In this document: positions 22,556 through 56,800 of the stretch, one piece after another
Numbering within the stretch: the stretch's first letter is position 1
Layout of the letters: the number at the start of each line of letters is the position of its first letter
NCBI RefSeq assembly: GCF_900102925.1
Contig: NZ_FNKI01000001.1
Location: forward strand, 558,001-622,000
DNA: 64,000 bases
DNA from: Flagellimonas zhangzhouensis
Lineage (GTDB): Bacteria; Bacteroidota; Bacteroidia; Flavobacteriales; Flavobacteriaceae
Reading direction: 5' to 3'
Translations under genes and position numbers: made by a program
The notes under the pieces: model-generated
What the model saw: only the letters and a program-made list of their open reading frames with translations
What the model was told of the DNA's origin: nothing
Database searches by the model: none

Positions 22556-22596
22556 CAGTTGATCATGTGCCCTTTTGGGGAGGTGTTAATGTTGAT

Positions 22597-24393
22597 ATGA
22601 AAAAGATTCGAAATTTTTGCATAATTGCACATATAGACCACGGTAAAAGTACCTTGGCAGACCGTTTGTTGGACTTTACGGGTTCTGTTACCGAACGCGA
22701 AAAACAAGACCAGTTGTTAGACAATATGGACTTGGAGCGCGAACGCGGAATCACAATTAAAAGTCACGCCATTCAAATGGAATATGTGCACGAGGGTGAA
22801 ACTTATGTTCTGAACCTTATCGACACTCCTGGTCACGTGGATTTCTCTTATGAAGTTTCCCGTTCTATCGCAGCTTGTGAGGGAGCGCTTTTGGTAGTCG
22901 ATGCTGCACAAAGCATTCAGGCACAGACCATTTCCAATCTTTATTTGGCTCTTGAGAACGATTTGGAAATAATTCCAGTCCTTAATAAAGTGGATTTGCC
23001 AAGTGCCAATCCAGAGGAAGTTACCGACGATATTGTTGATCTTTTGGGTTGTAAACCTGAAGAGGTGATTCCTGCCAGTGCTAAAACTGGTATTGGAATT
23101 GAAGAAATTTTAACCGCCATTATTGAGCGTATCCCTGCGCCAAGTGGTAATGCCGATGAGCCTTTGCAGGCCTTGGTTTTTGATTCTGTTTACAATCCTT
23201 TTAGAGGTGTTGAAACTTATTTTAGGGTAGTAAATGGGGAAATCAAAAAAGGGCAAAAAATCAAATTTGTCGCAACGGGCAAGTCCTACGATGCTGATGA
23301 AATTGGCACCTTGAAATTGAAGCAAATGCCCAAACAAAAAATTTCCGCTGGGGATGTGGGCTATTTGATCACGGGTATTAAAGACGCTCGCGAAGTAAAA
23401 GTTGGGGATACCATTACTGATGCCGTTAACCCGACCAAAAATGCCATTTCTGGTTTTGAAGACGTAAAACCCATGGTTTTTGCAGGAATTTATCCAGTAG
23501 ACACTGAGGATTTTGAAGAATTGCGTTCTTCCATGGAAAAGTTGCAGTTGAATGATGCTTCTTTAGTGTTCACCCCAGAAAGTAGTGCCGCACTAGGATT
23601 TGGATTCCGTTGTGGGTTCTTGGGAATGTTGCATATGGAAATCATCCAAGAGCGTTTGGAGCGTGAGTTCGATATGACCGTAATCACCACGGTTCCCAAC
23701 GTAAGCTACCATGCCTTTACTACAAAAGACAGGGAAACCCCATTAATTGTAAACAATCCTTCCGATTTACCAGACCCGAGTACGGTAGATCGTGTTGAGG
23801 AACCTTATATTAAAGCGACCATCATCACAAAATCCGATTTTGTGGGGAATGTGATGTCACTTTGTATTGAAAAACGAGGTCAAATTGTGAATCAAACCTA
23901 TTTGACCACGGAACGGGTAGAGCTTATTTTTGATATGCCCTTGGCCGAAATCGTGTTTGACTTTTATGACCGATTGAAAACCGTTTCAAAAGGTTATGCC
24001 TCTTTCGATTATACACCAATAGGGATGCGAGTATCCAAACTGGTCCGAGTGGATATCCTTTTGAACGCGCAACCTGTTGACGCTTTATCTGCATTGGTCC
24101 ATTTTGATAATGCACACACTATTGGTAAAAAAATGTGCGAAAAGTTAAAAGAGCTTATCCCAAGACAGCAATTCGATATTCCTATCCAAGCTGCGATTGG
24201 CTCCAAGATTATTTCTAGGGAAACCATAAAAGCTTTGCGAAAAGATGTTACCGCCAAATGCTATGGTGGTGATATTTCCCGTAAACGTAAACTGCTTGAA
24301 AAACAGAAAAAGGGTAAAAAGCGAATGCGCCAAGTTGGAAATGTAGAAATTCCACAACAAGCTTTTATGGCCGTTTTAAAGTTGAATGATTAA
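22597..24393 (+). CDS. lepA: Elongation factor 4 (LepA), translational GTPase
   Basis: A 598-residue GTPase that acts on stalled or mistranslocated ribosomes and helps initiation and 30S assembly. G1 [15 protein letters not shown], switch [17 protein letters not shown]3 [13 protein letters not shown]4 NKVDLP and G5 [10 protein letters not shown] are all intact. The EF-G-like domains II, III and V follow, and the LepA-specific C-terminal domain ends with [22 protein letters not shown] use the ATG at 22597 ([17 protein letters not shown]), which gives the family length of 598; an in-frame GTG 30 bases upstream adds a non-conserved leader. It is a single-gene unit that converges with the lipoprotein cluster. 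Confidence 0.97.
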
Positions 24394-24431: not shown

Positions 24432-24686
24432 TTAGAAATCACCTTCAGAATCATCGGCACAAGCCTCATCCACGACTTGCTGAGGAGTACTCCCTTCTAA
24501 ATCTTCTTCGGTCATAGTTCCTTTGATACCATATGCTGTGGCGTCATAAGTTCCATTGCCATTGTCGCAAAGCTCAAATTTATTACCTAGTTCGGAAGTA
24601 CATGAATAGCACTTTTTGTCATCGTCCTTTGAGCAGCTTACTGAAATTAAACTAAGTGTCATCAAGGCAAGTACAATTTTTCTCAT
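24432..24686 (-). CDS. Small cysteine-rich lipoprotein, paralogue A (unknown function)
   Basis: An 84-residue predicted lipoprotein, the leftmost of four tandem paralogues. The signal (MRKIVLALMTLSLISVSC) ends at Cys18, which would be lipidated; SKDDD after it resembles the Bacteroidota lipoprotein surface-export signal (Lys followed by acidic residues), suggesting an outer-face location. The mature domain has CYSC near 26-29, LCDNGNGTYD near 39-48, an acidic helix (TEEDLEGSTPQQVVDEAC) near 59-76 and an acidic tail. The four Cys outside the lipobox are conserved across the cluster and could form two disulfides. I do not recognise the domain. It is preceded by its own copy of the shared promoter/operator and converges with lepA. 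Confidence 0.85.
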   Translation of the reverse strand: MRKIVLALMTLSLISVSCSKDDDKKCYSCTSELGNKFELCDNGNGTYDATAYGIKGTMTEEDLEGSTPQQVVDEACADDSEGDF

Positions 24687-24785
24687 TTTTAAAGGTTTTT
24701 GGTTATTGAATGAGATAAATGTACTTGTGAAGCTTGTCCTTTATGGGGCACAATTGACGAATGCCCCTTTTGGGTTGATGGATTG
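24687..24785 (-). promoter_or_regulatory. Cluster promoter/operator, copy A
   Basis: On the minus strand a -7-like box TACATTTA (24716-24723) lies 29 bases before the ATG. Exactly 29 bases upstream of it is half-site ATTGAC (24753-24758, given as on the plus strand) and a second half-site GTTGAT (24774-24779) starts 21 bases further. GGGGCA (24745-24750) and TGCCCC (24762-24767) form a perfect six-base inverted repeat around the first half-site. The same layout recurs in copies B, C and D. There is no -33 TTG, so an activator is inferred. Confidence 0.7.
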
Positions 24786-24799
24786 GTCATAAAAAAGGA

Positions 24800-24819
24800 A
24801 ATGCGCTAAAAAGCACATT
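24800..24819 (-). terminator. Terminator after lipoprotein paralogue B
   Basis: AATGCGCT (24800-24807) pairs with AGCACATT (24812-24819), with one G-T wobble, around an AAAA loop. On the minus strand it is followed by CCTTTTTT. It lies about 18 bases beyond the stop of the gene ending at 24838. Confidence 0.7.
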
Positions 24820-24837
24820 ACATCTTTCATAAATTAA

Positions 24838-25086
24838 TTAAAGGCTATTACAAACTTCTTGAGCATATTCTTCTGGACTCATGTTCCCAAGTTGCTCAGC
24901 TGTCAATTCTTGAGTTGCCACTCCACCAAGTGTAAGTTCATATTTTCCATTTCCTAAATCACAAATTTCAACCTTTGTGCCTTCACTGCTATCGCATGTG
25001 TCACATTTTTTGCTTGGTTCATCATCCTTTGAACAGCTCACTGTAATCAAACCCAAAGCCATCAATGCAAGTACAACTTTTCTCAT
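24838..25086 (-). CDS. Small cysteine-rich lipoprotein, paralogue B (unknown function)
   Basis: An 82-residue predicted lipoprotein. Signal MRKVVLALMALGLITVSC ends at Cys18, followed by SKDDEPSKK, again a surface-export-like acidic stretch. The mature domain keeps the cluster pattern: CDTC (about 28-31), VEICDLGNGKYEL (about 39-51), and LTAEQLGNMSPEEYAQEVC ending near residue 80. Compared with paralogue A the acidic C-terminal tail is missing. It has its own promoter copy, lying exactly 400 bases from that of A, and its own terminator, so each gene of the cluster is a separate transcription unit. Confidence 0.85.
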   Translation of the reverse strand: MRKVVLALMALGLITVSCSKDDEPSKKCDTCDSSEGTKVEICDLGNGKYELTLGGVATQELTAEQLGNMSPEEYAQEVCNSL

Positions 25087-25190
25087 TTTTAAAGATTTTT
25101 GGTTATTGAATGAGATAAATGTACTTGTGAAGCCTGTCCTTTATAGGGCACAATTGACGAATGCCCCTTTTGAGTTGATGGATGCGTGGT
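25087..25190 (-). promoter_or_regulatory. Cluster promoter/operator, copy B
   Basis: TACATTTA on the minus strand (25116-25123), half-site ATTGAC (25153-25158) after a gap of 29 bases, and GTTGAT (25174-25179) 21 bases further. The inverted repeat around the first half-site has one mismatch (AGGGCA versus TGCCCC). Apart from a few substitutions the 100 bases equal copy A. Confidence 0.7.
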
Positions 25191-25277
25191 TTTAAAAGAA
25201 ATCTTTTAACTATTACACTTGTTTAATTTTAAATTACGGCTCATTGCCGGAGCTAATTAAAAAAGTGAAGGTTGAAA

Positions 25278-25706
25278 TCAAAATTTTAATTCAGGGGCAT
25301 CACTACACAAAAAATATAAGAGCTCATCAGGGGCATAGCCCTCTAATTCTGCTTCCGAAAATGTATGGCTTTCTTCTCCATTAATAGTTATAAGATATGT
25401 TCCATCACCATTATCACAAATCTCGTATTCATTTTCCAAATTAGAAATACATGATTCACAACCGTCATCATCATCACAGGCTTCCTGAACAAACTCTTGA
25501 GGTGTTTGCCCCTTTAAATCTCCTTTATCTAAAGTCCATATTACACCAAATTCAGTAAATTTAAATATATCATTTCCGATATTACAAATTTCAAATTCAT
25601 TACCCAATTCTGAAGTACATGACACACATTTGGGGGCATCATCATTTTTGGAACAATTAACAGAAATTAAACCAAGAGCCATAAAGGCAAGTACCCTTTT
25701 TCTCAT
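25278..25706 (-). CDS. Cysteine-rich lipoprotein with two tandem domains, paralogue C (unknown function)
   Basis: A 142-residue predicted lipoprotein, the only member with the four-Cys unit twice. The signal MRKRVLAFMALGLISVNC ends at Cys18, followed by SKNDDAPK. Unit one runs from CVSC (about 27-30) through FEICNIGND to TPQEFVQEAC (about 76). After an acidic linker DDDDG, unit two runs from CESC (about 82-85) through YEICDNGDGTY to APDELLYFLC (about 133). The units align with each other and with A, B and D, so this looks like an internal duplication, or a fusion of two neighbours that lost the second signal peptide. Its promoter copy is the most diverged of the four. Confidence 0.83.
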   Translation of the reverse strand: MRKRVLAFMALGLISVNCSKNDDAPKCVSCTSELGNEFEICNIGNDIFKFTEFGVIWTLDKGDLKGQTPQEFVQEACDDDDGCESCISNLENEYEICDNGDGTYLITINGEESHTFSEAELEGYAPDELLYFLCSDAPELKF

Positions 25707-25805
25707 TTTTAAAGATGTTTGGTTATGAATAAGCTAAATGTACTCGTGTGGTGTTTTCCTTAGGGGTTACAATTGACCGATACCCCGATTGAGTTGATGG
25801 ATGGG
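25707..25805 (-). promoter_or_regulatory. Cluster promoter/operator, copy C (diverged)
   Basis: TACATTTA on the minus strand (25735-25742), half-site ATTGAC (25772-25777) again 29 bases away, and GTTGAT (25793-25798) again 21 bases on. The flanking inverted repeat has changed from GGGGC/GCCCC to GGGGT/ACCCC, both arms changing together. Bases between these elements are largely different from the other copies, which marks the kept ones as functional. Confidence 0.7.
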
Positions 25806-25910
25806 TGTTTTAATATTGAATTAGTCAACGCAGAGCAACTTCTTCTTTCAAAGGGAAAATGGAAATCCGAGTACAAGCATTTATGTCTGATTTAACGTTG
25901 AAGATATACC

Positions 25911-26192
25911 CTATTGATTTAAATTCTCCAAATCACATAAGCTTTGTACATATTGTTTTGGCGTGGCGCCCAAATCGTCCAATTGGGTTTGGGTTACTGT
26001 TTTTACTAATGTCCCTCCCGAAGTTATTGTGTAGGTTTTCTCTAATGACCCACTCTTTCCTGGACAGATTTCCAATTTTTCTCCCTGAGCTGTGCAATTT
26101 TCACATTCAGATTCTGGAGCTTCATCTTTATCCTTAGAGCAGCTTACAGAAATTAAACCCAAAGCCATAAAGACAAGTACAATTTTTCTCAT
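25911..26192 (-). CDS. Small cysteine-rich lipoprotein, paralogue D (unknown function)
   Basis: A 93-residue predicted lipoprotein. The start is the ATG at 26192, which aligns with the MRK start of the other three; longer in-frame starts run through the shared promoter element. The signal MRKIVLVFMALGLISVSC ends at Cys18, followed by SKDKDEAPESE. The mature part has CENC (about 30-33), LEICPGKSGS (about 40-49), a Thr-rich strand region and LGATPKQYVQSLC ending near 86. It is the most diverged mature domain although its promoter is nearly identical to A and B. It lies downstream of the antiporter on the same strand but has its own promoter. Confidence 0.83.
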   Translation of the reverse strand: MRKIVLVFMALGLISVSCSKDKDEAPESECENCTAQGEKLEICPGKSGSLEKTYTITSGGTLVKTVTQTQLDDLGATPKQYVQSLCDLENLNQ

Positions 26193-26290
26193 TTTAAACA
26201 TTTTTAGTTGTTGAATGAGATAAATGTACTTGTGAAGCCTGTCCTTTATGGGGCGCAATTGACGAATGCCCCTTTTGAGTTGATGGATAA
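26193..26290 (-). promoter_or_regulatory. Cluster promoter/operator, copy D
   Basis: TACATTTA on the minus strand (26221-26228), half-site ATTGAC (26258-26263) after 29 bases and GTTGAT (26279-26284) 21 bases further. The inverted repeat is GGGGCG/TGCCCC. Upstream the similarity ends near 26290, just short of the antiporter stop at 26329. Confidence 0.7.
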
Positions 26291-26328: not shown

Positions 26329-28164
26329 TTACTCTTCTTGGTCTTCATCGATCAATTTACCTAGATATACCAATTTGTAACCGTCACCTTTGGGCACAAA
26401 ATCCTTGCTGTTGGCCGGCATAATATCTATACTTCCGCTTGGGGCTTTGGTAAACAGTGGTACAATATCGGTCTCCTTTTGGGTAAGGTCGATGAGATTA
26501 TCGTAGTGTTCCTTATCCCTTAGGTCTATTTCATGAATGGTCGGGTGGGTTCGCACCGTATCCATTAACTGTATAAAGTCATCCGTATGTGAAAACAGAC
26601 CTTCTTTTGGGTTATTTTCTGGGTCGTTTACTTCTTCTGTATTTACCAATCGAAAGGCTCCGTTTTCTCCAAATTGCTTTTGGAACTTTTTAATGGCGAA
26701 CTTGTTAATGTCTGAGTTGCCTGTTAAAGCCATCAAATATCCCATATCGTTCAGTTCGATATTGTCGGTAAGATTGTCAGAAAAAATATTGGCTGTAATA
26801 GCTTCCAATCCCAACTTTTTAGCTTTATCCACATTAGTTTGGTTGTTGTCAATCAACACCACATGCCTGTTGTTCTTTTTCAAATAATTGGCAATTAAAC
26901 GGGATAGTTTGGATGCGCCAATGATTAAAATACCTTCGGACTTCTTTAAGAAAACACCCACTATTTTGGCAAAGAAACGAGCTGTGGTAGCATTCAACAA
27001 TACAGTTCCCAATACGATCATAAACACCAAGGGGGTAATGTATTCTGCTCCAGGTTCTCCCTTGGCCATCAATTTGGAACCAAAAAGCGAAGCGATACCA
27101 GCGGCAACAATACCACGTGGACCCACCCATCCTATAAATAGCTTTTCCTTAAATTTTAAATTGGAACCTTGGGCACTTAAAAACACCCCTAGCGGTCTTA
27201 TTAAGAAAACAATAATGGCAAAAAGCGCTACCGTGTTCCAGTTTAGAATCAACTCCATATCTGTAATGTTGATGTTGGCCGCCAACAGGATGAACAGAAT
27301 TGAAATCAACAAAACACTCAACGATTCTTTAAAATAGAGTAGTTCTTTAATGTTAGGCAAATTCATGTTGCCGAGCACCATTCCCATCACAACGACCGCC
27401 AAAAGTCCAGATTCATGAGCAAAAACATCCGATTCCACATACACCAACAACACCGTGGAAAGTGAAACCACATTCAACAAATAATGGGGTATGAAGTCTT
27501 TTTTTATGGCAAAACCGAGTGCATGGGCAAACGTGAAGCCGAAGGTGGTTCCAAAAAGTATGATTTTTCCAAATTCAACCAAGGCTGTTTGGGTAAATTC
27601 GCTGCCCTCTCCAACACTTATAAATTCAAATACCAATACTGCAACCAAGGCTCCGATTGGGTCAATCAAAATCCCCTCCCATTTTAATACCGCCGACACA
27701 TCCTTTTTTAACGGAATATTTCGCAAAATCGGGGTAATTACTGTTGGTCCAGTAACTATAATCAATGCCGAAAACAAAAAGGAAATTTGCCAGGTAAGCC
27801 CAAAAAAATAGTGTGCGGAAACACCTGCTCCGAAAAAGGTAACAACAGTGCCAATGGTGATAAGTTTAGTGATTACAGGCCCCACATTGGAAATTTCGGC
27901 CCTTTTTAAGGTTAATCCACCCTCAAAAAGAATTACACTTATGGCCAAGGACACAAAATTGTACAGTCCTTCTCCAGGAAAAAGACCTTTGGTCCCATTC
28001 CAAATGGGTTCTATTAATTTAGAGCCATCCTCAGTGTATAAGGTCGCAATAGGCCCTACTAATAATCCAATCAATATTAAGGGTAAAATGGCAGGTAATT
28101 TAAACCGCCAAGCCACCCACTGAGCAATAATGCCAAGAATAATAATTCCAGCAAGTTCAAGCAT
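26329..28164 (-). CDS. Cation:proton antiporter (CPA1/NhaP type) with C-terminal TrkA-N domain
   Basis: A 611-residue inner-membrane antiporter. About 12 hydrophobic helices occupy residues 1-390, including the opening LAGIIILGIIAQWVAWRFKLPAILPLILIG region and the ion-binding helix EGILIDPIGALVAVLVFEF with the paired acidic and Asp-Pro residues typical of CPA1. A cytoplasmic TrkA-N (RCK) domain begins near residue 400 (GILIIGASKLSRLIANYL, GxGxxx/A-type nucleotide loop; VVLIDNNQ ends the second strand) and would sense NAD(H) or nucleotide. A C-terminal acidic segment follows. It exchanges Na+ or K+ for H+ in pH and salt control. The ion cannot be fixed from sequence. It lies upstream of the lipoprotein cluster. 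Confidence 0.9.
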   Translation of the reverse strand: MLELAGIIILGIIAQWVAWRFKLPAILPLILIGLLVGPIATLYTEDGSKLIEPIWNGTKGLFPGEGLYNFVSLAISVILFEGGLTLKRAEISNVGPVITKLITIGTVVTFFGAGVSAHYFFGLTWQISFLFSALIIVTGPTVITPILRNIPLKKDVSAVLKWEGILIDPIGALVAVLVFEFISVGEGSEFTQTALVEFGKIILFGTTFGFTFAHALGFAIKKDFIPHYLLNVVSLSTVLLVYVESDVFAHESGLLAVVVMGMVLGNMNLPNIKELLYFKESLSVLLISILFILLAANINITDMELILNWNTVALFAIIVFLIRPLGVFLSAQGSNLKFKEKLFIGWVGPRGIVAAGIASLFGSKLMAKGEPGAEYITPLVFMIVLGTVLLNATTARFFAKIVGVFLKKSEGILIIGASKLSRLIANYLKKNNRHVVLIDNNQTNVDKAKKLGLEAITANIFSDNLTDNIELNDMGYLMALTGNSDINKFAIKKFQKQFGENGAFRLVNTEEVNDPENNPKEGLFSHTDDFIQLMDTVRTHPTIHEIDLRDKEHYDNLIDLTQKETDIVPLFTKAPSGSIDIMPANSKDFVPKGDGYKLVYLGKLIDEDQEE

Positions 28165-34902: not shown

Positions 34903-35034
34903 TTTTTGTCGCAACACTTCATTTTGAGGTTGAATCAAACTGGTGCTGACCAATCCAAAGGTGTGTTCCGTCAATTCATATAAGGCAACCGTCAAATAGC
35001 CCAACTGTTTTCTTGGTTCAATCACTATTTTCAT
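34894..35034 (-). CDS. Possible small protein of 46 residues (unknown)
   Basis: An ATG-started reading frame of 47 codons on the minus strand. It fills the 146-base gap between the S41 gene (overlapped by 9 bases at its end) and the membrane-protein ATG at 35049. The product (MKIVIEPRKQLGYLTVALYE through VLRQKLI) has a natural amino-acid composition and codon use like its neighbours, with no signal peptide. No family is recognised. It could be a genuine small gene, the remnant of a larger one, or chance. Confidence 0.4.
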   Translation of the reverse strand: MKIVIEPRKQLGYLTVALYELTEHTFGLVSTSLIQPQNEVLRQKLI

Positions 35035-44810: not shown

Positions 44811-47800
44811 TTAATTGCGGTAGAGTGTAAAGTGGCCCACAAACTCTCTGTCATCACGATCACCATTTAGGCGAACTACATACCAGTAATCTCCAGTAGG
44901 TAATGGTTTACCATCGTAATTACCATCCCACCCTTTGATTTCGCGGGTCATTTCTTCCACTACTCTACCATAACGATCATAAATTTTAATTAGTACGTCA
45001 GGGAAGCCCTCAACATTGTCAGGAAGCCAAAAATCGTTAAGACCATCACCATCTGGGGTAAAGAAGTCTGGGAAGTCCACATCCATGAATTCCACATAGA
45101 TTTCAGCAGTAGCCTCACATCCATTCTGATCAATAACAGTTACCGTGTAAGTATCTGTATAGTTGATGTAGAATATGTTGTCCGATCCATTGTTGATATC
45201 GTTGAAATAGAAGGTATAATCCTCTACACCACCTTCAGCGATAGCAGTGATTTGGTTAAAGCTGTTGTTCTCCAATACCAAGGTCAATGGTTCATAACCT
45301 TCAATGGTGAAATCATAAGTGGTCATACAACCATTGGCATGAGCAATAGTAACAAAGTGATCACCTGGGGTAAGGTTTGAAAAATCTGCAGTCAATTGCA
45401 TATCTGCAGGATCAGTTGAATCCACTGCATACATTACATCGTCTATTATTGACTCGTTTTCAAAAACAATATCCAAGTAATTGTTCGGAATATTTCCTGT
45501 ACACTCATACATTGGAGTTACCGTAGCCGCAAGATTTACACCTGGCTCGATTTCCACAATCACATTGGTTTCACAACCTTGTGCATCTCTAATAAATACT
45601 ACGTGAGTTCCTGCTGCAAGATTTTGGAACAAGAACTGATCTTGTACAAAGTTTGCATCTTGGCTAGAGTTCAAGCTGGTCATATATGGTGCTGTACCTC
45701 CAGTAACTTGAATTTCAAACTCACCATCTGCGCTATCGAAACATACTTCGTGCATAATGTTGATAGCTTCTGCAGCGATTGGTTCTGGTTGAACAATTTC
45801 AAATTGGAAGGTCAAGAAACAACCGTTCACATCTTGAGCGATTACATCGTAAATACCAGGTGCCAAATCGGTAAAGGTATTTTCGGTATCGAACTGATCA
45901 AGGTTTGGTGAAATTGCGTAAAGAATTTCTCCTGTACCACCAGATACTTCAACAGTGATTGTACCGTCGTCCATTCCTGCACATGTAATATCGGTAGACT
46001 CTTCTCTTTCAATTACCAATGGAGCTGGATCAACAATGATGATTTCAGGAGACACCTCAACACAATCCTCACTGATAACTCTTACGTAGTAGCTACCTGC
46101 TGGCAACGTATTGAATGTTCCACTGGTCTGTGGTCCAGCCAATAGGTTGGTCAAAGCAGCATCACTGAACAATTCGTAATAGTAATTACCCAATCCACCA
46201 GTTGCTTGAGCAGTGATTGTTGCAGATGCTTCACCCATACAGTTGATGAATGCTGCAGAATCGTCAATGGTCAATATTAATTCTGGTATAGGATCAATGG
46301 TTACTTGGTTAGAGATTTCAGCCTCACAACCATTTGTATCACGAACATAATATTGGTATACTCCCTCTCCTACGGCTAGCGTAATTGAATTACCTGCCAT
46401 TGGAGTAAAGTTGATGTTATCGGTACTGTACAAGTAAGAACCGTTTCCACCTGAAGCGGTCAATAAAATTTCTGCATCAGTGGTACAAGTCATTTCGGTA
46501 ACCTGAACTAAAGAAGCAAATACTTCAGTTGGCTCGTTGATAGTTACTTGTGGAGTTTCCACACCACAGTTCCAACCATCAGTTACGGTAATGCTATAGA
46601 TACCAGCACCCAATCCTGTAAAGGTATTGTTGGTTTGTTCACCTGTTGTGAATTCAATGGTAGTACCAGTTGCATCATAATAGTTCAACTGATATGCATA
46701 TGAACCTTCTCCACCAGTTACGTTGATGGCCCAAACAGCAGCACTGTCATCTCCATAACAAGCCAAATCAATCGGAGCAGCATCAATATCTGCGGTGATA
46801 GGATCTGGTTCTGTTAAGGTCAATGTTCTATCTTCAAAACAACCACCATTATCGGTAACTCTTACCGTATAATCTCCAGCAGACAATCCTGTGAACACGA
46901 AACTTTGAACATCGTTCATGGTGTAAACTTCTGAAGTAGTGGTATTCGTCAATACAATATCGTATGGTGCATATCCTCCTGTTGGTGCTACCATTATTTC
47001 ACCTAAATCGTTAGTACAAGTTACATTGGCGACTTCCAAAGGAGCAGCATCCAATGCTGAACTTGGCGAAATGATGGTAACTGTACCAGATGTAGATGTG
47101 CAGAAAGGAGCTTCTGTGGCCTCTACTTCAACATAATAATTGCCACCAACCAAATCAGGATGGGATATGGCCAAGGAACCAGCTGAAGCATTTCCACTTC
47201 CAGATACGATAAGCGTACCATCGGTTCTGTAAACATCATAATCATATAATCCTGGGTAACCAGAAACATCTATTGTAATTTCTCCTGCATCACCAAAACA
47301 CATAGCTGGTGAAGTAGCCGTAGCAACAACATCAATGGTATCGTAGGGTGCAATGGTGTATGAAGTTATAACGTAACATCCCGTTGCATCATTAGTAGCC
47401 CTAAAGGTGTATGTTCCTGGAGCATTCAAGTCAAATGTTGCAGTGGTACCTGTAGAAGCCGTCATTGTTCCATAAGTGTTTCCAACAGGCAACAAGGCAA
47501 ATGTATAGGTGTCACCAGGAATATATTCTGTAACCGTTAGGGTTACCGTTTCTGGATTCACACAAGATATAGCAACATCTTGGTTGGTAGCTACGGTGAA
47601 CGTATTCAATGGTTGAATATCAATACTATTTGGATATTCACATCCATTGGCATCTCTTACAATATAGTTGATGGTTTGAACACTTCCATTATCCACAACA
47701 TCAAATGTTGTAGATGAAGTAAAGGCATTTCCATTGAAGCTATAGACAAATGGAGCGGTTCCACCAGTTGGAACAACAGTCACAGTTGCTTCATTAACTG

Positions 47801-50800
47801 AATTACTTGGGCTACAAGAGAAATCAGTAGCAGTAGCAGTGGCCGCTAATACTGGAGGTTCTCCAATTGTAGCATCAAAGGTATCTTCACAAGCTCTGGA
47901 AGAAATTACTCTTACTCGGTAATCACCAGCTGGTAGATTATCGAATACAGGGCTCGATTGCGCAAATCGGTAAGGAGTTACCAAGTTGGACATTTGATAT
48001 AATTCGTAAGTGTAAACAGGGTCAACAACGGTTGCTGGGTCAAGAACCACAGTCAAACTACCATCTGAACCGCCATTACAGCTTACATCTTCTTCAATTA
48101 CATTATCGATAACAGGATCTACTTTATCATCCAATTCTTGTGTTACCACATAAGTACATGGAGTAGTAGTATCATTATCGGTTACGGTAATGGTATAAAC
48201 GCCTGGTTGAACAAGTCCTGTGAATACTCCCGTAGCATTGCTATCGGTTGTAGTTCCATCAGGATAAACCAAATCAAATGTTAGGTTAGATGAACCACCA
48301 GATACATTCACGGTAATTTGTCCTCCTGGATCAACAGTACAGTCAATTGGCTTAACCACGGTTGTATTGGCAGTCATTGCATCAGAAAGAACTACTGGAC
48401 CAACAGTTGTGGTACATGTCCACTGATCAGCTATCAATACCTCATAAGAACCAGCACCCAATCCTGAGAAAATGGTACTTGTTTTAGGCGAACCAACGTT
48501 CACTCCGTTTCTGATCAATTGATAAGTGTAGTTGCTTCCTTGACCACCAGTGGTTCCAACAACTTCGATTTCTCCTTGAAGGTTGGTACAGTTTTCAACA
48601 TTTACTTGCAGTGAAGCTGTAATTGGCAGAGGATCGGTCAACGTAACTGTATCCACCAATTGCTCACATCCGCTTGAATCGATTACCCAAGCTTCATAAG
48701 TTCCTACGGACAATCCTGTAAAGTTAGGACTAGCCACATAGTCACCAGGGCCTGTTGGAGAAGTAGTTCCCACATAGTAGGAGTATCCACCCCATCCACC
48801 AGCTACGCCAGTAATTTGGATAATACCATCGTTACCCACACAAGTGATATCGGTTACCACAGTAGAACCTGTAATCGGTGCGGCAGGACCAGCAATATTG
48901 AATGATTCGCTGTACACACAAGCAGCACCTGGAGGGTTGGTATCAGTAACTTCGATATAATAAGTACCCGCCGCAAGACCTGAAATGGTAAAGTTTCCAT
49001 CTGTGTCAGATCCTGTTGAGGTTACATCATCGGCCAAGTTGGTTGGGGTATTGTTGATATCGTAGTATAAGGTATATGTTATTGCACTTGCATAGGTAAT
49101 GCTAGAAGCATCTACCAAGTTCAGTTCAACAGCGCCATTGGTATCACCATAACAAGTGATATCTGTTGTGCTGACTACCATTAAATCCAACACTTCTGGA
49201 TCAGCTACTTCGTGTGAAACGGTAATGATACATCCTGTTACTGTATTTCTCACTTCAAAATTGTGAATACCAACAGACAGTCCAGTAAAACTTCCTGAAG
49301 CTTGGAAAGTTCCAGAAGGCAACTCTCTAAACTCATAGTTTGCTGGGTCTGTAACAGATGTTGTTATAGATCCAATAGCAGTAATAGTAATATCTTCACC
49401 TGTTACACAAGTGGCTACAGCATCAACTGCTACGGTTGCAGAATCCAAACTATCGAATGGTGCAATAACAGCAGTTGTAGTTCCTAAACATCCATTACTA
49501 TCGTATACATTAATGGTATAATTGCCACCTGCTGTATTGGTTTCAGTGTAAACAGGGTTGCTACCTGACTGAACCACTACAGAACCAGCATCATTGATAA
49601 ATTCATAGATAACATAGTTTCCGCTACCTCCTGTAATGGAAGCAGTGTCCACGGTAATTGTTGCATTGTTGGTATTGTTACCAGCAGTACAACCAAATTC
49701 AACCACTGTTGGTGCAGCAACAGCAATGGCTGCTGGCTCTCCAATAATGATATCAAAGATGTCAACAAAACAGCTGTTAGAACCAACTCCTCTTACACTA
49801 TATGTACCAGCAGGAAGGTTTTCAAATGTGTTACCATTCAATACAGCACCAGCTGGCATTGGAGATAAAGTATAGGTTAATGGGTTGATACCATTATCTA
49901 TTTCTGTAAGTGTAATGGTTCCATCGCTGGCACCAAAACAAGTTACATCCGTATGCGTTTCAGTGAAGCTTGGAAGCGGTGCGTCTGGCACCTCAACTGT
50001 TATGGTACGTGAACAGTTTGGTGGGGCTGTTCCCATATCAAATACAATCACATCATAACTGCCAGCAGCAGCAGCACCTGTCCAAGTAAATGGATTGGAA
50101 GGTAGCACAGCTCTAGCTTGGTCGTTAGTACCAGGCCCATCGATCATGTACTCGTAATTTCCAGATCCAGCAAAAACTTCGATTTCAATTTCTGCATTGG
50201 CCAAGGCTCCTGGCTCACAATCCAAAGCAACAGTTTGAATTGCAGTGAACTCCAATGGAGGATGTACCTCAATCACATCCGTATCAGTACAACCATTGCT
50301 GTCAATAATCGAAACATTATAGGTTCCTGGAGCTACATTGGTAAATATGCCTCCGTTGTTTTCATAGGTCGCACCTCCATCCAAAGAATAGAAAATTTGA
50401 GGCGCAGTACTTGTTGCGTTAATGGTAACAGTTATTGGTAGGGCACAGCTATCGATTACAATGCTGTCAATGGTTGGATTTGGAGTTAGTGTCAAAGGAA
50501 CTGACCCAAGATTCACACCACAACCATATTGATCCTCCATAGTTACATCGTAGTTACCTGCAGGTGAGTTTGCAGGAATCTCAATAGGGTTATCAGATGT
50601 TGAAGTTATAGTCGTGAATCCAACAGGTCCAGTTACAGTGTAGGTGTACGTTCCACCTCCACCCAATGGGTTTTGAACTTGGATCAAACCAGGCTCACTA
50701 CAGCTAATATCTTGTAGTACATTCAACGTACCAGAAAGAGGGTTCAATTCTGGTAAAAAGACATTTTCCGTTGCACCCACACAACTATCGTTGTTGGAAC

Positions 50801-53800
50801 CATCTACTTCGGTAACTTCAATGTAATAATTTCCTTCAGGTAAATTGTTAACTGTAACATCTTGTTGAGGAGATGAAAATGGCACAATTCCACCACTGGT
50901 AGCCACAGATACAGGCGAACCAGAAGACATGTCATAAACAGTCCATCTCATCTGAGTTTCAAATGGAGCTTGGTTGTCGGTGATTGTATATGTGATACTA
51001 CCAGTGCTTAATCCATCACAAGTTGGAGTTACTACAGAAGTAATTTCCAAAGGAACGGTAATCAAATCGTTCACGTTTACATTACTCTGACGCACACAAC
51101 CACTCGTATCCCTTACATAGAAAACATAGGTTCTACCAGGAACCAAACCTGTCCATTGGTACATTCCATGACCAGCTGGCACAGTGTTTCCTAGGTTATC
51201 TGTTGTTCCACCAACTTGCCATGTTGCAGCAGTTGGATCAAAATTAGCTGGATCATCAGAGTATGCATATTCGTATGGAGCCACACCTTCGGAACCTTGA
51301 ACGGTAACCTGCAATTCATTACAGTTTACAATCAAAGCTGAAATGGTAATATCCAAATCATCCAATGGGTAAGGAATAATGAAAGGCTCTAAATCTGTTT
51401 GACAAACCGTGTTGCTTGATCCATCCACAGTTCTCAATGAAGGATAAACCGTATCTCCAGGATTATATCCACGGAATTGATCAGATGACTGCCAAGTTGT
51501 ACCGCCATCATCACTAAATTCGATGGTTCCAATGGTCGATGGGTAGCCTGAGAAATCAAATCCAAAATCGTTTGGTCCTACACTAGCGTCACAATTTAAT
51601 GGTACTACACCTGTAACAATACCTGTTAATTCATCAGGGTTGTTGATGGTTTGTGTATCTGTAATGGTACAACCTGTTGCATCGGTTACATTAATTGTGT
51701 AATCCCCAGGCATTAGGTTGTAGTAAGTACGGCTAGAGGCCAATACGTTTGTATCGGTTTGGTTGGAAGCACCTCCATTGTCCAAATCCACAATTTCTAT
51801 GGTATATGGGGCAATTCCAGAGGTAATATCCACCAAAATATTTCCAGTTCCATCATGACAGTATGGATCAGTAGGCGTTGCAACCATTGTTAATGGTACA
51901 GCAGGATTTACGGTAACTGTTTCAACATATTCACAATAAGGAGCAGTTGCCGAATTATCTCTTACGTACACATCAAAAGTACCTTCGTTACCAGCACTCA
52001 CAGTGTAAACATTGGTAGTTGAGAAGGATCCAGTTGGGTCAGTCGTAGTTGGAACAAAAGCATATTGCAGAACTGGACTTCCGCCAGAAGCTGTTACGGT
52101 AATACTTCCATCAGCACAAGAAGAAACATCCACAACTTCTACGTTCGCCACCAAATCATCAACAATGGTTACGGTATCTTGAATAGAACATCCATATTGA
52201 TCACGAACATCAATGGTATAGGTTCCTGCTGTTAAGCTTGAGAATGTATAGGTAGTAGCTGAGGTAGGCGTTGGGGTAATCCAAGCACCACCGTTAATAC
52301 TGAACTGATAGTTTCCGTTTCCAGAAGTTACATCAACCTGAATAGTTCCGTCGTTGTTTCCACTATAACAAGCTGTTGGTGTTAAGGTGAAAGCAATGGT
52401 TGCTGGTGGAGCGATGGTAATAGGAGTTGTATCCTCGCAAAGATTTGTGTCTCTTGATCGAATCACATAATCTCCAGCAGCCAATCCAGTAAATACATTA
52501 GAAGATTGGTAAGTCGTGATTACACCACCTACAGTATCTTCCAATTGGTATTGGTATGCAGGAGTACCACCTGTTGTGGTTGCTGTTACAGTAGCACCAC
52601 CGTTGGTACAAGTAAGTTCGTTGGTCACCACTGCAGTTACATCCAATACATCAGGTTGTGCTAATGTTTGGTTCAACACTACCGAACAAGCAGGGTCTCT
52701 TAGGTCTACAATGTTGATCGTATGTGCACCAGCTGCTAATCCTGAAACAGTGATAGGACTTGCAAATTGAGCCGCAGAAACAACGCCACCATCTACTTGG
52801 TAGGTATAACCTGTTGCTGGGTCAAAGTTTTCAACTTCAAAGGTGATGGTTCCATCGTTAGCACTGTTACACGTTAAATCTGTGTAAGAAGTGATGGCTC
52901 CATCAAAGGCATTTCCATCCTCAACGTTTACATTGATAGTCAAAGATTCTGTACAAACCTCAGGAGTTTGGTAGGCTTCAATATCATCAATCGCGATATC
53001 ATTTCCGCCAGTAACAGCTGAATTTGTTCTAATAACAATATCTAAGTTGGTATTTGCTCCTGGATTTAGGGTTACAGAGTAGTTTTGCCAATCGTTAACA
53101 CCATTGTTTTTAGGAACATTTCCTGTAGTTGTGCTCGCAATTACAGTTCCAACTCCATCAACTAATTGAATGTCGATATCTGGATCAGCTCCGCCAGTTC
53201 CATTTCTTAGCAAGTTAAATGCCCAAAGGGAAATGGTAATATCTCTGTTTGGAACTACTTCGATGCCTCTTTTGGCATAAATAATGCCATTGGCACCAAC
53301 TGCGCCACCAACATTCATGGCAAGGAATCTACCATTGGCCACACCTGTATGATCATTAGGACTTAACCATGATGGGTATGGATTTACAATGGTTTGGGTC
53401 ACTGAGTATTCCCCGTCTTGTATTTCAGTATTTATTGACCATCCACAAGAGTTTGCAGACCCATTTTGAGGTTCATAGCAATACGCTGGGTCTACCTCTG
53501 GAATACTGGTATTTGGTCCTGTTCCAAAGTTTTCAGAAAGAAGAATACTCGGAGAAGGAGCAATATTACTTGTATAATTTACCGTAATTGTATGGTTTCC
53601 AACAGCAACATCCGTAAACACATTGGAGGTGTTTGGAGTATTTGGTGAACCATCAATTTCATAAGTATAATCAAAATCTGTGCTACTTGGAGTTACAGTA
53701 ATTGTACCCTCACCATCACACTCGTAATCTATTGAAGTAGTAGCTGTAGGAGCTTCAGGTTCTGGATCAATAGTTACAGACATTGGGAAGGTACAAAGGT

Positions 53801-56800
53801 TGGCATCCCTAATATAAAGGGTGTGCGTTCCTGGCAATAAATAACCAATTGAACTAGCACCGTAGGTTGAACCTCCATCAAAACTATATTCGTAAGGAGC
53901 GGTTCCTCCAATGGCATTGGTAATACGCACCTCTGCTCCCATTCCTGGATAACATTCTGCCAATGCAGTCACTGCTGCTGATGCAGAAAGCGTTAAAGGT
54001 TCAGTAATGGTATAAATTTCGGTTACCTGACAGTTGTTGGCATCTCTTACACGTACATTGTAGCTTCCTGCAGGAAGATTTACAAAAGTGTTTGAAGTTT
54101 GGTAATTGGCACCATTGTCAATACTGTACAAATATGGTCCTTCACCACCCGAAGCAGCAATGGTAATTTGAGCTTGTGATTCACCACTACAAAGAATATC
54201 AGTATTTGTAACTGAAATAACCAATGGATCATCTTGTGTGATTGTAATGTCGTAAGTAGCCTCACAATATCCAGCTGCACCGTTGTTGTCTCTTACATAC
54301 ACATCGTAATCCCCAGCAGAAGTAACGGTAATAGGATTTGTAGTTGAGAAGTCTCCAGCATTTGGGGTTGCTCCATTGGCCACAACTGCATACACATAAT
54401 TTCCATCTCCACCAGCGGCAGTAATGGTAATATCTGTATCTGTTGCACAGGCTGTAATATTTGGAGCCGAAGCAACAACACTAAGTTCAGGGTCAATTGT
54501 GATAGAAGCTGTATCGGTACAATCATTACCATCTCTAACATCAACGGTATAGGTGCCTGGGCCTAAGTTGGTAAATACATTGTTGGTTCCGAAAGGACCT
54601 CCATTTAGACTGTATTCGTAATTTCCGTCACCACCTGATGTGATGTTTGCTGTAAGGGTCAAACCTGTAGCATCATCGTAACAAATATCGTTGGGAACAA
54701 TTTCCAAAACAGGCGCAACGGCCTCATTTAAAATGAAGGTATCGGTAAACACACAACCGTTAGCATCGGTTACTGTATAAGTATAGGTTCCTCCAATGGC
54801 CAATCCACTGAATAATCCGCTAGATTGGGGTCCAGACAAAACATATCCAGCTGGGCCAGACGTAATTTCATAGGTATAACTTCCCCATCCACCATTAGCA
54901 ACTATGTTCGCAGAACCATCGGCAACACAAGTAGGCTGTGCCAAGGTTACAGGAGCGGTAATGGCTGCTGGTGGAGCAGCAATGGTTACATCTGTGGTAT
55001 CGGTACAGTTGGTAAGGTTATCAGTTACTGTAATGGTGTAAGTTCCTTCGGCCAAACCAGTCAAAGAAATAGTTCCGTTGGTTTCTCCTGTTCCAGAGAA
55101 AGAAGCTGGTCCTGTTACCGTATAATCGTAATCAGTATTGAAGTTGGAAACAGTGTATGCAATTTCACCATCAGTGTCACCATAACAGGTGACGTTGCTT
55201 ACAACTTGACCAATCACTGAAATCTCTGTTACTGGAGCAATAGTGTAACTTTCATCATAGAAACACCCGTCACTGTCTGTTACACGGAACATATATGTTC
55301 CTGGCAACAAGTCAGCGAAAGTGGCATTGTTTCCATTGTTCACCGCACTAGCAGCTGGAGAAATAATTTCATAAGTTAAACTTGGTGAACCACCTGTTAC
55401 TGTTAATGTAATGTCTGATTCGAAAGTAGGACACAAAGGATTTGTTGCCGCAAAATCGATATCGGTTGGTGGTACAAGAGGGTCAATGGTGATAGGGTTG
55501 GTATCGAATGTACATCCGTTGGCATCTCTAATCACAGCAGAGTAGGTACCATCTGTAAGACCATTAAAAGTTGGAGAGCTTACAAAGTTTACACCATCAA
55601 TACTATATTCATATGGAGCAGTTCCTCCAGTTACATTTTGAATTTCAACAACACCATCTGATAAACAGCTATAGTCTTGGACTAAAACTGCACTACCATC
55701 AATTGTGGCGCCAGGAGCGGAAACGGTGTGGTACTCGAAGTAATCACAAGAGGCACTTCCTTTTCTTTGGTTGATGACCACTACATAATCGCCATCTCCC
55801 AAAGCAGGAAAATTTCCTGAAGCATTAGTGCTCAAAGCATCTGCGTAATCGTAGTTATCCTCATCAAAACCTGTAGCATCGAACAAATAATAGGTTAACT
55901 GATATCCATTACTGTTCACAAGGTTAAAAGTGATAGATCCTGTAGCATCACCATTACACAATACATCTAAAACCGTAGTTGCATTAAAATCTGCAGCAGG
56001 TCTAAACTCAATGGTCACTGTGTTGGATATATCATAACAGTCATATCTATCCACAACTACAAAGGTGTACTGTCCTGGATCGTAGATATCGAAAATTTGA
56101 CTTGTCTGAAATTCAGAAGCAGGAACATCGGTAACGGATGGATAGGAAATTTGGGTGATTCCGTCTTCATCTACAAATGACCAAATAGCATACAGGTGGG
56201 GAGTTTTTCCTCCTGTTGATTCCATTTGAATATTTCCTTCACGACAGGTAATGTGTTGTGATATTCTTGCAGTCAATTCAAGATCAGCTTCATCTAAAAT
56301 GGTTACTTGTTCGTTGTAAGTACAACCATCGTCGGTTGTAACCGCTACATCATAAACTCCACTATTTAGGTTTTGGAATGTATAGTTGTTGTCAGCAGAA
56401 GGCCCAAAAGTATCAACCACTGTTCCACCTGTGGAAATTTCGTAATAATATTGAGGTTCTACATCCAAAACAGAAATGGAAATCTCTCCCAATCCTGTAC
56501 AGTTGGTATTTTGGGTTGTAATATCTACTTGGAAATCTCTTTGAAGAATACCGATGTTATCCAACAAAAAAACACAACCACCAGTAACACCAGCTTGTCT
56601 CATTTCTACCATGTAAGCTCCATTGGTAGAAATATCAAAACTTGGACTAGATTGGTAAGGAGTAATGATTGCTCCAGTTGATTGGTTCACCAATTGGAAC
56701 TCATAGCTCAAAGGCATATTGGTAACGGTAATGTTTCCGTCTGTGTTACAAATAATGTCTCTTGAGGTGTATTGTGGATCAAGAGGGTTTTTGTAAACAT

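Follow-up and report, generated by a model that had tools for sequence, protein, structure and literature searches.

Among the described systems closest to the locus analysed here are surface lipoproteins with an export signal and the targets of LytTR-type regulators. Among the surface lipoproteins of Bacteroidota that carry a lipoprotein export signal (LES), the optimal signal for surface export in Capnocytophaga is given as C-X-K-(D/E)2-X (PMC5080379). The targets of LytTR-type response regulators such as HdrR and YpdB are preceded by a direct repeat of two units of 9-11 nt with a spacer of 11-13 nt, and YpdB of E. coli binds a repeat of GGCATTTCAT (PMC6193735, PMC4847170). Both features recur in a 64,000-nucleotide stretch of the Flagellimonas zhangzhouensis genome (below, the window), in which four adjacent genes, A to D, encode small lipoproteins with a four-cysteine (4-Cys) domain, each behind a conserved leader with a direct repeat. 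The array lies between a gene on the plus strand and one on the minus strand that we take to be lepA (EF4) and a CPA/NhaP-type cation:proton antiporter gene (below, CPA), respectively. On balance, we consider it probable that A to D are LytTR-controlled, disulfide-braced, lipid-anchored surface proteins of an undescribed Flavobacteriaceae family, with a predicted role as binding modules.

Compared with the LES proteins described in PMC5080379, A and B share the lipobox followed by C-X-K-(D/E)2 (CSKDDD in A and CSKDDE in B), and C and D have a polar or acidic start; what sets the four apart is a tiny 4-Cys domain that belongs to no named family, and their surface location is a prediction from sequence. 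Compared with the LytTR targets described in PMC6193735 and PMC4847170, the spacing of the upstream direct repeat is shared, with repeats of 7-9 nt, a period of 21 base pairs (bp) and a position about 65 bp before the ATG, and the half-site in the window, GGCATTCRTC, resembles the YpdB repeat GGCATTTCAT. The sites here differ in being many and dispersed in each genome, and in two leaders (loci L016 and L020) there are three repeats in the 21-bp register, not two.

Family identity

All four proteins begin with a lipobox signal peptide of the form MRKxVLxxMxLxLIxVxCSK, in which the lipobox cysteine and the serine that follows it are invariant across 28 aligned members of the family. By the lipobox criterion, A to D are bacterial lipoproteins, with lipidation predicted. 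The signal peptides of A to D are 71-82% identical over 17 residues; an earlier sequence-only reading of this DNA had called them almost identical, which is right as to their likeness and a little strong in wording. That reading had also recognised four adjacent paralogous genes, and this was confirmed when a search of the 3.74-Mb window genome with A gave, among seven candidates scored, five matches at E <= 10, every one in the A-D cluster (domain 1 of C, E 1.3e-25; B, 2.2e-18; D, 2.2e-11; domain 2 of C, 6.8e-11), a paralogy far beyond chance by sequence comparison. The four open reading frames (ORFs) were found where they had been placed, but the positions given were gene ends, because the genes are on the minus strand. 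A single domain per gene holds for A, B and D, but C carries two, so that the array comprises five domains in four genes. The start of D is most likely the ATG of MRK at 26192, as judged by alignment with A to C, rather than the TTG at 26258.

The domain pattern proposed earlier (CxxC, [FVLY]E[IL]C, a turn and a C-terminal helix ending in Cys) stood up well. The four cysteines are invariant in 27 aligned domains from the window and its relatives, residues S5 and G22 are nearly so, and all five window domains retain every cysteine; variants with two cysteines exist in other genomes.

Searches with Pfam and NCBIfam gave only matches below the curated cut-offs for the four window proteins. Across the 28 aligned members, the best E values were 0.00076 for Pfam and 0.00021 for NCBIfam, the cut-offs for single members not being displayed, and none of the 28 was matched by PADLOC at E <= 0.1. 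The NCBIfam matches fall mostly on the signal peptide; those from Pfam are scattered and weak, most often to the collagen-flanked surface repeat (CFSR), which 4 of 28 members match with E values down to 0.00084. Among ten further relatives, only those at L064 and L068 pass a cut-off, both for DUF6252 (PF19765). In these two, the DUF6252 match lies outside the part that fits the 4-Cys profile, which sits C-terminal to it, whereas A to D have no DUF6252 domain. The strongest NCBIfam match apart from these, that of L117 to PG1828_fam_lipo (E 2.3e-6), covers residues 1-33 and reaches 28.2 bits against a cut-off of 50. A sequence-profile search of PDB gave filamin as its best match, at E 0.068 and over 17 positions. 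In a literature search of open-licence papers, no description of a 4-Cys lipoprotein family or of a LytTR regulon in Flagellimonas/Allomuricauda (below, the genus) turned up among the papers listed.

Going by these sequence searches, A to D belong to a family without a name in the databases searched, as the sequence-only reading had suspected. The family is, on sequence evidence, a real one, because it recurs at the same locus, between lepA and CPA, in other genera and because its clear orthologues are under purifying selection; homologues and constraint at the protein level, the lack of which would have spoken against the earlier reading, were both found. The 4-Cys domain is new; the kind of object to which it belongs is ordinary.

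Upstream leader and direct repeat

Each of the four genes is preceded by a leader of ~97 bp, 76-96% identical among A to D, and the ~50 bp preceding this leader are 34-53% identical. One repeat element is found in every leader, in agreement with the earlier claim that each gene has its own promoter. The element follows the pattern CRTCAAY-N10-CATN-CRTCAAY and mostly lies at the distance from the ATG given above. At up to 3 mismatches, it is present in 29 of 30 leaders of the genus (the remaining one, L013, has 4) and in 6 of 1500 shuffled leaders, a score that is partly circular because the leaders of the genus are those from which the pattern was composed. The genome counts provide the independent test. 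In the window genome, there are 68 sites at up to 2 mismatches, compared with 7 for a reversed-pattern control. At up to 1 mismatch, sites occur in all 60 of 60 genomes of the genus, with 1-70 in each and 1001 in total (control, 41), and 39 genomes of other families together contain 36 (control, 22); a few of the matches are simple CATCAAC repeats.

Of the window-genome sites with up to 1 mismatch, 24 of 25 precede an ORF of at least 75 amino acids that starts within 180 bp (median, 73.5 bp). A crude lipobox was detected in 14 of these 24 ORFs, compared with 3 of 38 ORFs of at least 100 amino acids in the window. The 14 include A, B and D, and two of the entries, L083 and L084, are one gene; L082, a simple repeat, is still counted among the 24, and the crude test errs both ways, L091 being a likely false positive and L071 a likely false negative. 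Because the repeat recurs across the genome and in every genome of the genus that was scanned, with a LytTR-type architecture, A to D look like members of a putative LytTR-type regulon rich in lipoproteins. A scan for sigma-70 promoters yielded 4, compared with 5.8 expected by chance; promoters of the Bacteroidota type would explain why there is no excess.

Several further observations concern these sites. Three consecutive genes that encode unlike proteins (L073-L075, at G000:C9:211739, 212724 and 213581) each have a 28-base site identical to that of A, and two genes for collagen-like (GxxGxx) lipoproteins, L093 and L094, are also preceded by repeat sites. Around the second half-site before A (window 24745-24767), there is an inverted repeat, GGGGCA..TGCCCC. 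Its counterpart in L015 is likewise perfect, those of B and D have one mismatch each, and at C the arms are GGGGT..ACCCC.

Distribution across genomes

The domain profile matches 40 of the 71 genomes of the genus at E <= 0.01, although one of the 40, G016, has just two weak matches in long ORFs, which are probably spurious. The window genome has the highest count, with five domain matches, and the other genomes of the genus have one to three. In a sample of Flavobacteriaceae, 30 of 397 genomes, in 26 of 237 genera, are matched, some of them weakly and probably not by true members, as in G492, where the matched repeats lie in a reading frame of 4406 residues. The named relatives (27 loci) come from Flagellimonas, [Muricauda]/Allomuricauda, Maribacter, Eudoraea, Robiginitalea and Hyunsoonleella. 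Protein A itself matched in 37 other genomes, 29 of which, all in the genus, gave loci. Every one of these holds lepA, and the seven that lack CPA may be cut by short flanks. Outside the genus, 15 of 28 loci hold lepA and/or CPA by our own count, and in Eudoraea and Robiginitalea the lipoprotein gene is found at a site different from the lepA-CPA locus.

A lepA locus was obtained for 30 of the 31 genomes of the genus that the profile does not match. In 16 of these, CPA begins within 250 bp after lepA, which therefore leaves no room for a lipoprotein gene; in one, it follows after 885 bp, in three, a two-cysteine variant is present at the lepA locus, and in ten, CPA does not lie within the available DNA. 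Beside the lipoprotein genes of three loci, pieces of the 3' end of lepA are duplicated (L011, 1377-1495; L024, 1385-1489; L019, 1805-2074 and 2971-3240), and these resemble traces left by tandem duplication at this position.

Evolution of leaders and mature domains

Among A, B and D, the leaders are closely alike (A-B 94%, B-D 92%, A-D 90%), and that of C is 73-79% identical to these three. The genome with the most similar CPA among those compared, G034 (95.8% identity), has a leader 80-85% identical to those of A, B and D and 76% identical to that of C; leaders of other genomes reach up to 78%, close to the highest value for shuffled sequences, 77%. The mature domains, by comparison, are 35-54% identical within the genome. 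That of A is 67% identical to the domain in G048 but 38%, 54% and 36% identical to B, C and D, respectively, and the best matches of B and D likewise lie in other genomes (44% and 51%), their identities within the window genome reaching no more than 38% and 36%. Only C is nearest to a neighbour, its domain 1 being 54% identical to A. A tree of 35 domains, in which many forks are left open by 62 usable columns, groups A and domain 1 of C with G048, G002, G012 and others (support 96/96) and D with G029b and G032 (95/88), and places B elsewhere. Being nearer to the copies of other species, A, B and D give the impression of long-standing subtypes rather than of doses added recently, and, as far as these alignments go, retention of old subtypes explains much of the mature-domain diversity.

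These data bear on whether the array reflects dosage or different ligands, between which the sequence-only reading had not chosen. A plain copy-number expansion, with one surface lipoprotein amplified for dosage and its copies drifting, so that the differences between mature domains are functionally meaningless, is in our view unlikely: the similar promoter and leader on all copies, the closeness of A to domain 1 of C and the traces of tandem duplication at the site are what it predicts, but every cysteine is kept in all five window domains, and the affinities of A, B and D point to other species. Because leaders and signal peptides are alike, mature domains are far apart and A, B and D are nearer to other species, we favour different ligands, and dosage appears less likely.

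With respect to selection, the mature domains differ from the G034 copy, which may not be an orthologue, by a nonsynonymous divergence (dN) of 0.50-0.77, compared with a dN of 0.027 and a synonymous divergence (dS) of 1.66 for CPA and values of 0.010 and 0.60 for lepA. Synonymous sites are saturated among the window paralogues (mature pS, the Nei-Gojobori synonymous proportion, 0.71-0.98). Of six pairs of Maribacter orthologues, one is identical and five have a mature dN of 0.019-0.079 at a dS of 0.35-2.5 (in one example, 0.019 versus 0.74); on these sequence comparisons, clear orthologues are under purifying selection. No well-diverged pair has dN above dS, and in the near-identical pair G019a/G024a (mature nonsynonymous proportion, pN, 0.012; pS 0) the few nonsynonymous and absent synonymous differences are too few to weigh. 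The earlier suggestion of a diversifying system thus holds insofar as mature domains differ between genomes far beyond their flanks and copy number varies, but not as to an excess of dN; from the sequences, diversification is plausible but unproven.

Two close pairs of genomes give hints of exchange. For G019a/G024a, the mature dS is 0, versus 0.36 in lepA; for G029b/G030b, dS is 0.50, versus 0.02 in the neighbouring copy and 0.03 in CPA, a weak hint, with G029 fragmented and 71% complete. The similar leaders need not be due to gene conversion alone, the leader being 76-85% alike in G034 as well; because this likeness persists despite the dS values of CPA and lepA, the leader may in part be kept constant by purifying selection. 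It is conceivable, but doubtful, that the space between lepA and CPA serves as a lasting cassette site for surface variation, where a LytTR-controlled module of promoter, leader and signal peptide is homogenised by recombination within the genome and old mature domains are swapped between species. If so, the small disulfide-braced proteins displayed at the surface under a single regulator would keep changing.

Predicted fold and cysteine pairing

AlphaFold models of A (61 residues, pLDDT confidence 87.9) and D (66 residues, 89.2) are concordant, with four strands followed by two helices. Searched with Foldseek, the A model had no match at E <= 0.001 either in PDB (best E 0.15) or among viral structure models (best E 0.022). 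The weak local similarity to Treponema pallidum TP0435 (4u3q) and to the type VII chaperone LcpA (9mno), over 34-41 columns, is not significant (E 0.65 and 0.15), and neither protein appeared in the PDB sequence search.

The two-cysteine variants, found in three genomes of the genus and at L011, keep C2 and C4 in the alignment and lack C1 and C3; they are relatives of A, given that one of them, used as a query, matches A in the window genome at E 1.1e-5. That C1 and C3 are lost together, with C2 and C4 kept, suggests disulfides C1-C3 and C2-C4, and strands 2-7 and 13-18 of the A model, as paired by DSSP, would place residues 3 and 17 face to face.

The invariant CxxC could alternatively belong, together with the other two cysteines, to a zinc or iron site or to a redox pair, making A to D periplasmic metal-binding or thiol-redox lipoproteins. 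We consider this quite unlikely: no profile of a CxxC zinc ribbon or of a thioredoxin-type redox protein is matched above its cut-off, the sole zinc-ribbon match, in protein C, is far below threshold (14.3 bits versus 27.6), the A model has no significant Foldseek match to any fold, and the persistence at the same locus of variants without C1 and C3 is awkward for a metal site with four ligands. We regard it as very improbable that A to D are lipoproteins that protect against bacteriocins, contact toxins or phages, as immunity proteins or receptor decoys, and are kept diverse by an arms race. In favour of this are the variable presence and copy number, a mature dN far above that of the flanking CPA and the hint of exchange from neighbouring copies that diverge unevenly in two close pairs of genomes. 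Against it, the genes directly beside the array are lepA and CPA (no search for toxin genes in the region was made), PADLOC matches none of the 28 members, the Maribacter copy evolves slowly, and the match to BSAP-5i immunity lipoproteins is confined to the signal peptide (residues 5-31; 16.2 bits, cut-off 150), with none above cut-off over the mature part of the window proteins.

Proposed function

We therefore return to the reading of A to D as regulated surface proteins. A LytTR-type response regulator would bind the 21-bp-period repeat and control each gene from a separate promoter; it probably also controls many other genes for lipoproteins and envelope proteins. For A and B at least, the stretch after the lipid-bearing cysteine (CSKDD) would specify export to the outward-facing side of the outer membrane, and all four are probably on the cell surface. 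More tentatively, the proposed disulfides could brace the four-stranded sheet with a helix, and the domains might act as modules that recognise a ligand, a polymer or a partner, or serve as decoys; their specificities might differ, and the four might be switched on together with the rest of the surface regulon. Binding modules with different partners are the most likely function suggested by the sequences.

Several points weigh against this interpretation. The surface location predicted earlier is backed by an export-like N terminus in A and B, but C (CSKNDD) and D (CSKDKD) each deviate from C-X-K-(D/E)2-X of PMC5080379 by one residue. The lipoprotein is dispensable, since 31 of the 71 genomes of the genus have no profile match. 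None of the 17 lipoprotein leaders from other genera has the repeat, though the lipoprotein is kept there. The window genome has 15 LytTR matches, and a search upstream of these 15 genes tied none to the repeat, the two weak leads being L103, with a 2-mismatch site starting 129 bp before the first ATG, and L114, where two sites of 2 mismatches overlap and start 641 and 662 bp upstream. As to the disulfides, the pairing is deduced from the four two-cysteine variants, which may form one clade and hence record one event, and the facing of residues 3 and 17 was read from DSSP strand pairing and not from atomic distances.

If correct, the proposed reading would give a name to a new surface-protein domain that occurs across many Flavobacteriaceae genera. 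It would also reveal a LytTR-type regulon that spans the genus and whose binding site can be read, making the surface programme of this two-component system directly testable in Flagellimonas/Allomuricauda.

Genomic context

Table 1. Features of the array, its flanks and the direct-repeat sites (window coordinates)
Feature	Position	Strand	Description
Gene A	24432..24686	-	84-aa (amino acid) lipoprotein, mature N terminus CSKDDD, one 4-Cys domain
Gene B	24838..25086	-	82-aa lipoprotein, CSKDDE, one 4-Cys domain
Gene C	25278..25706	-	142-aa lipoprotein, CSKNDD, two tandem 4-Cys domains
Gene D	25911..26192	-	93-aa lipoprotein, CSKDKD, one 4-Cys domain, turn longer
lepA (EF4), presumed	22567..24393	+	conserved flank of locus; present in 29/29 genus loci
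CPA/NhaP-type cation:proton antiporter, presumed	26329..28164	-	conserved flank; present in 22/29 genus loci
LytTR-type direct repeat before A	24753..24780	-	0 mismatches
LytTR-type direct repeat before B	25153..25180	-	0 mismatches
LytTR-type direct repeat before C	25772..25799	-	2 mismatches
LytTR-type direct repeat before D	26258..26285	-	0 mismatches
Further putative repeat site, outside array	34969..34996	+	2 mismatches; 52 bp before ATG of membrane-protein-like ORF

Elsewhere in the window, positions 44811-58994 of the minus strand are taken up by a single ORF of 4727 residues.

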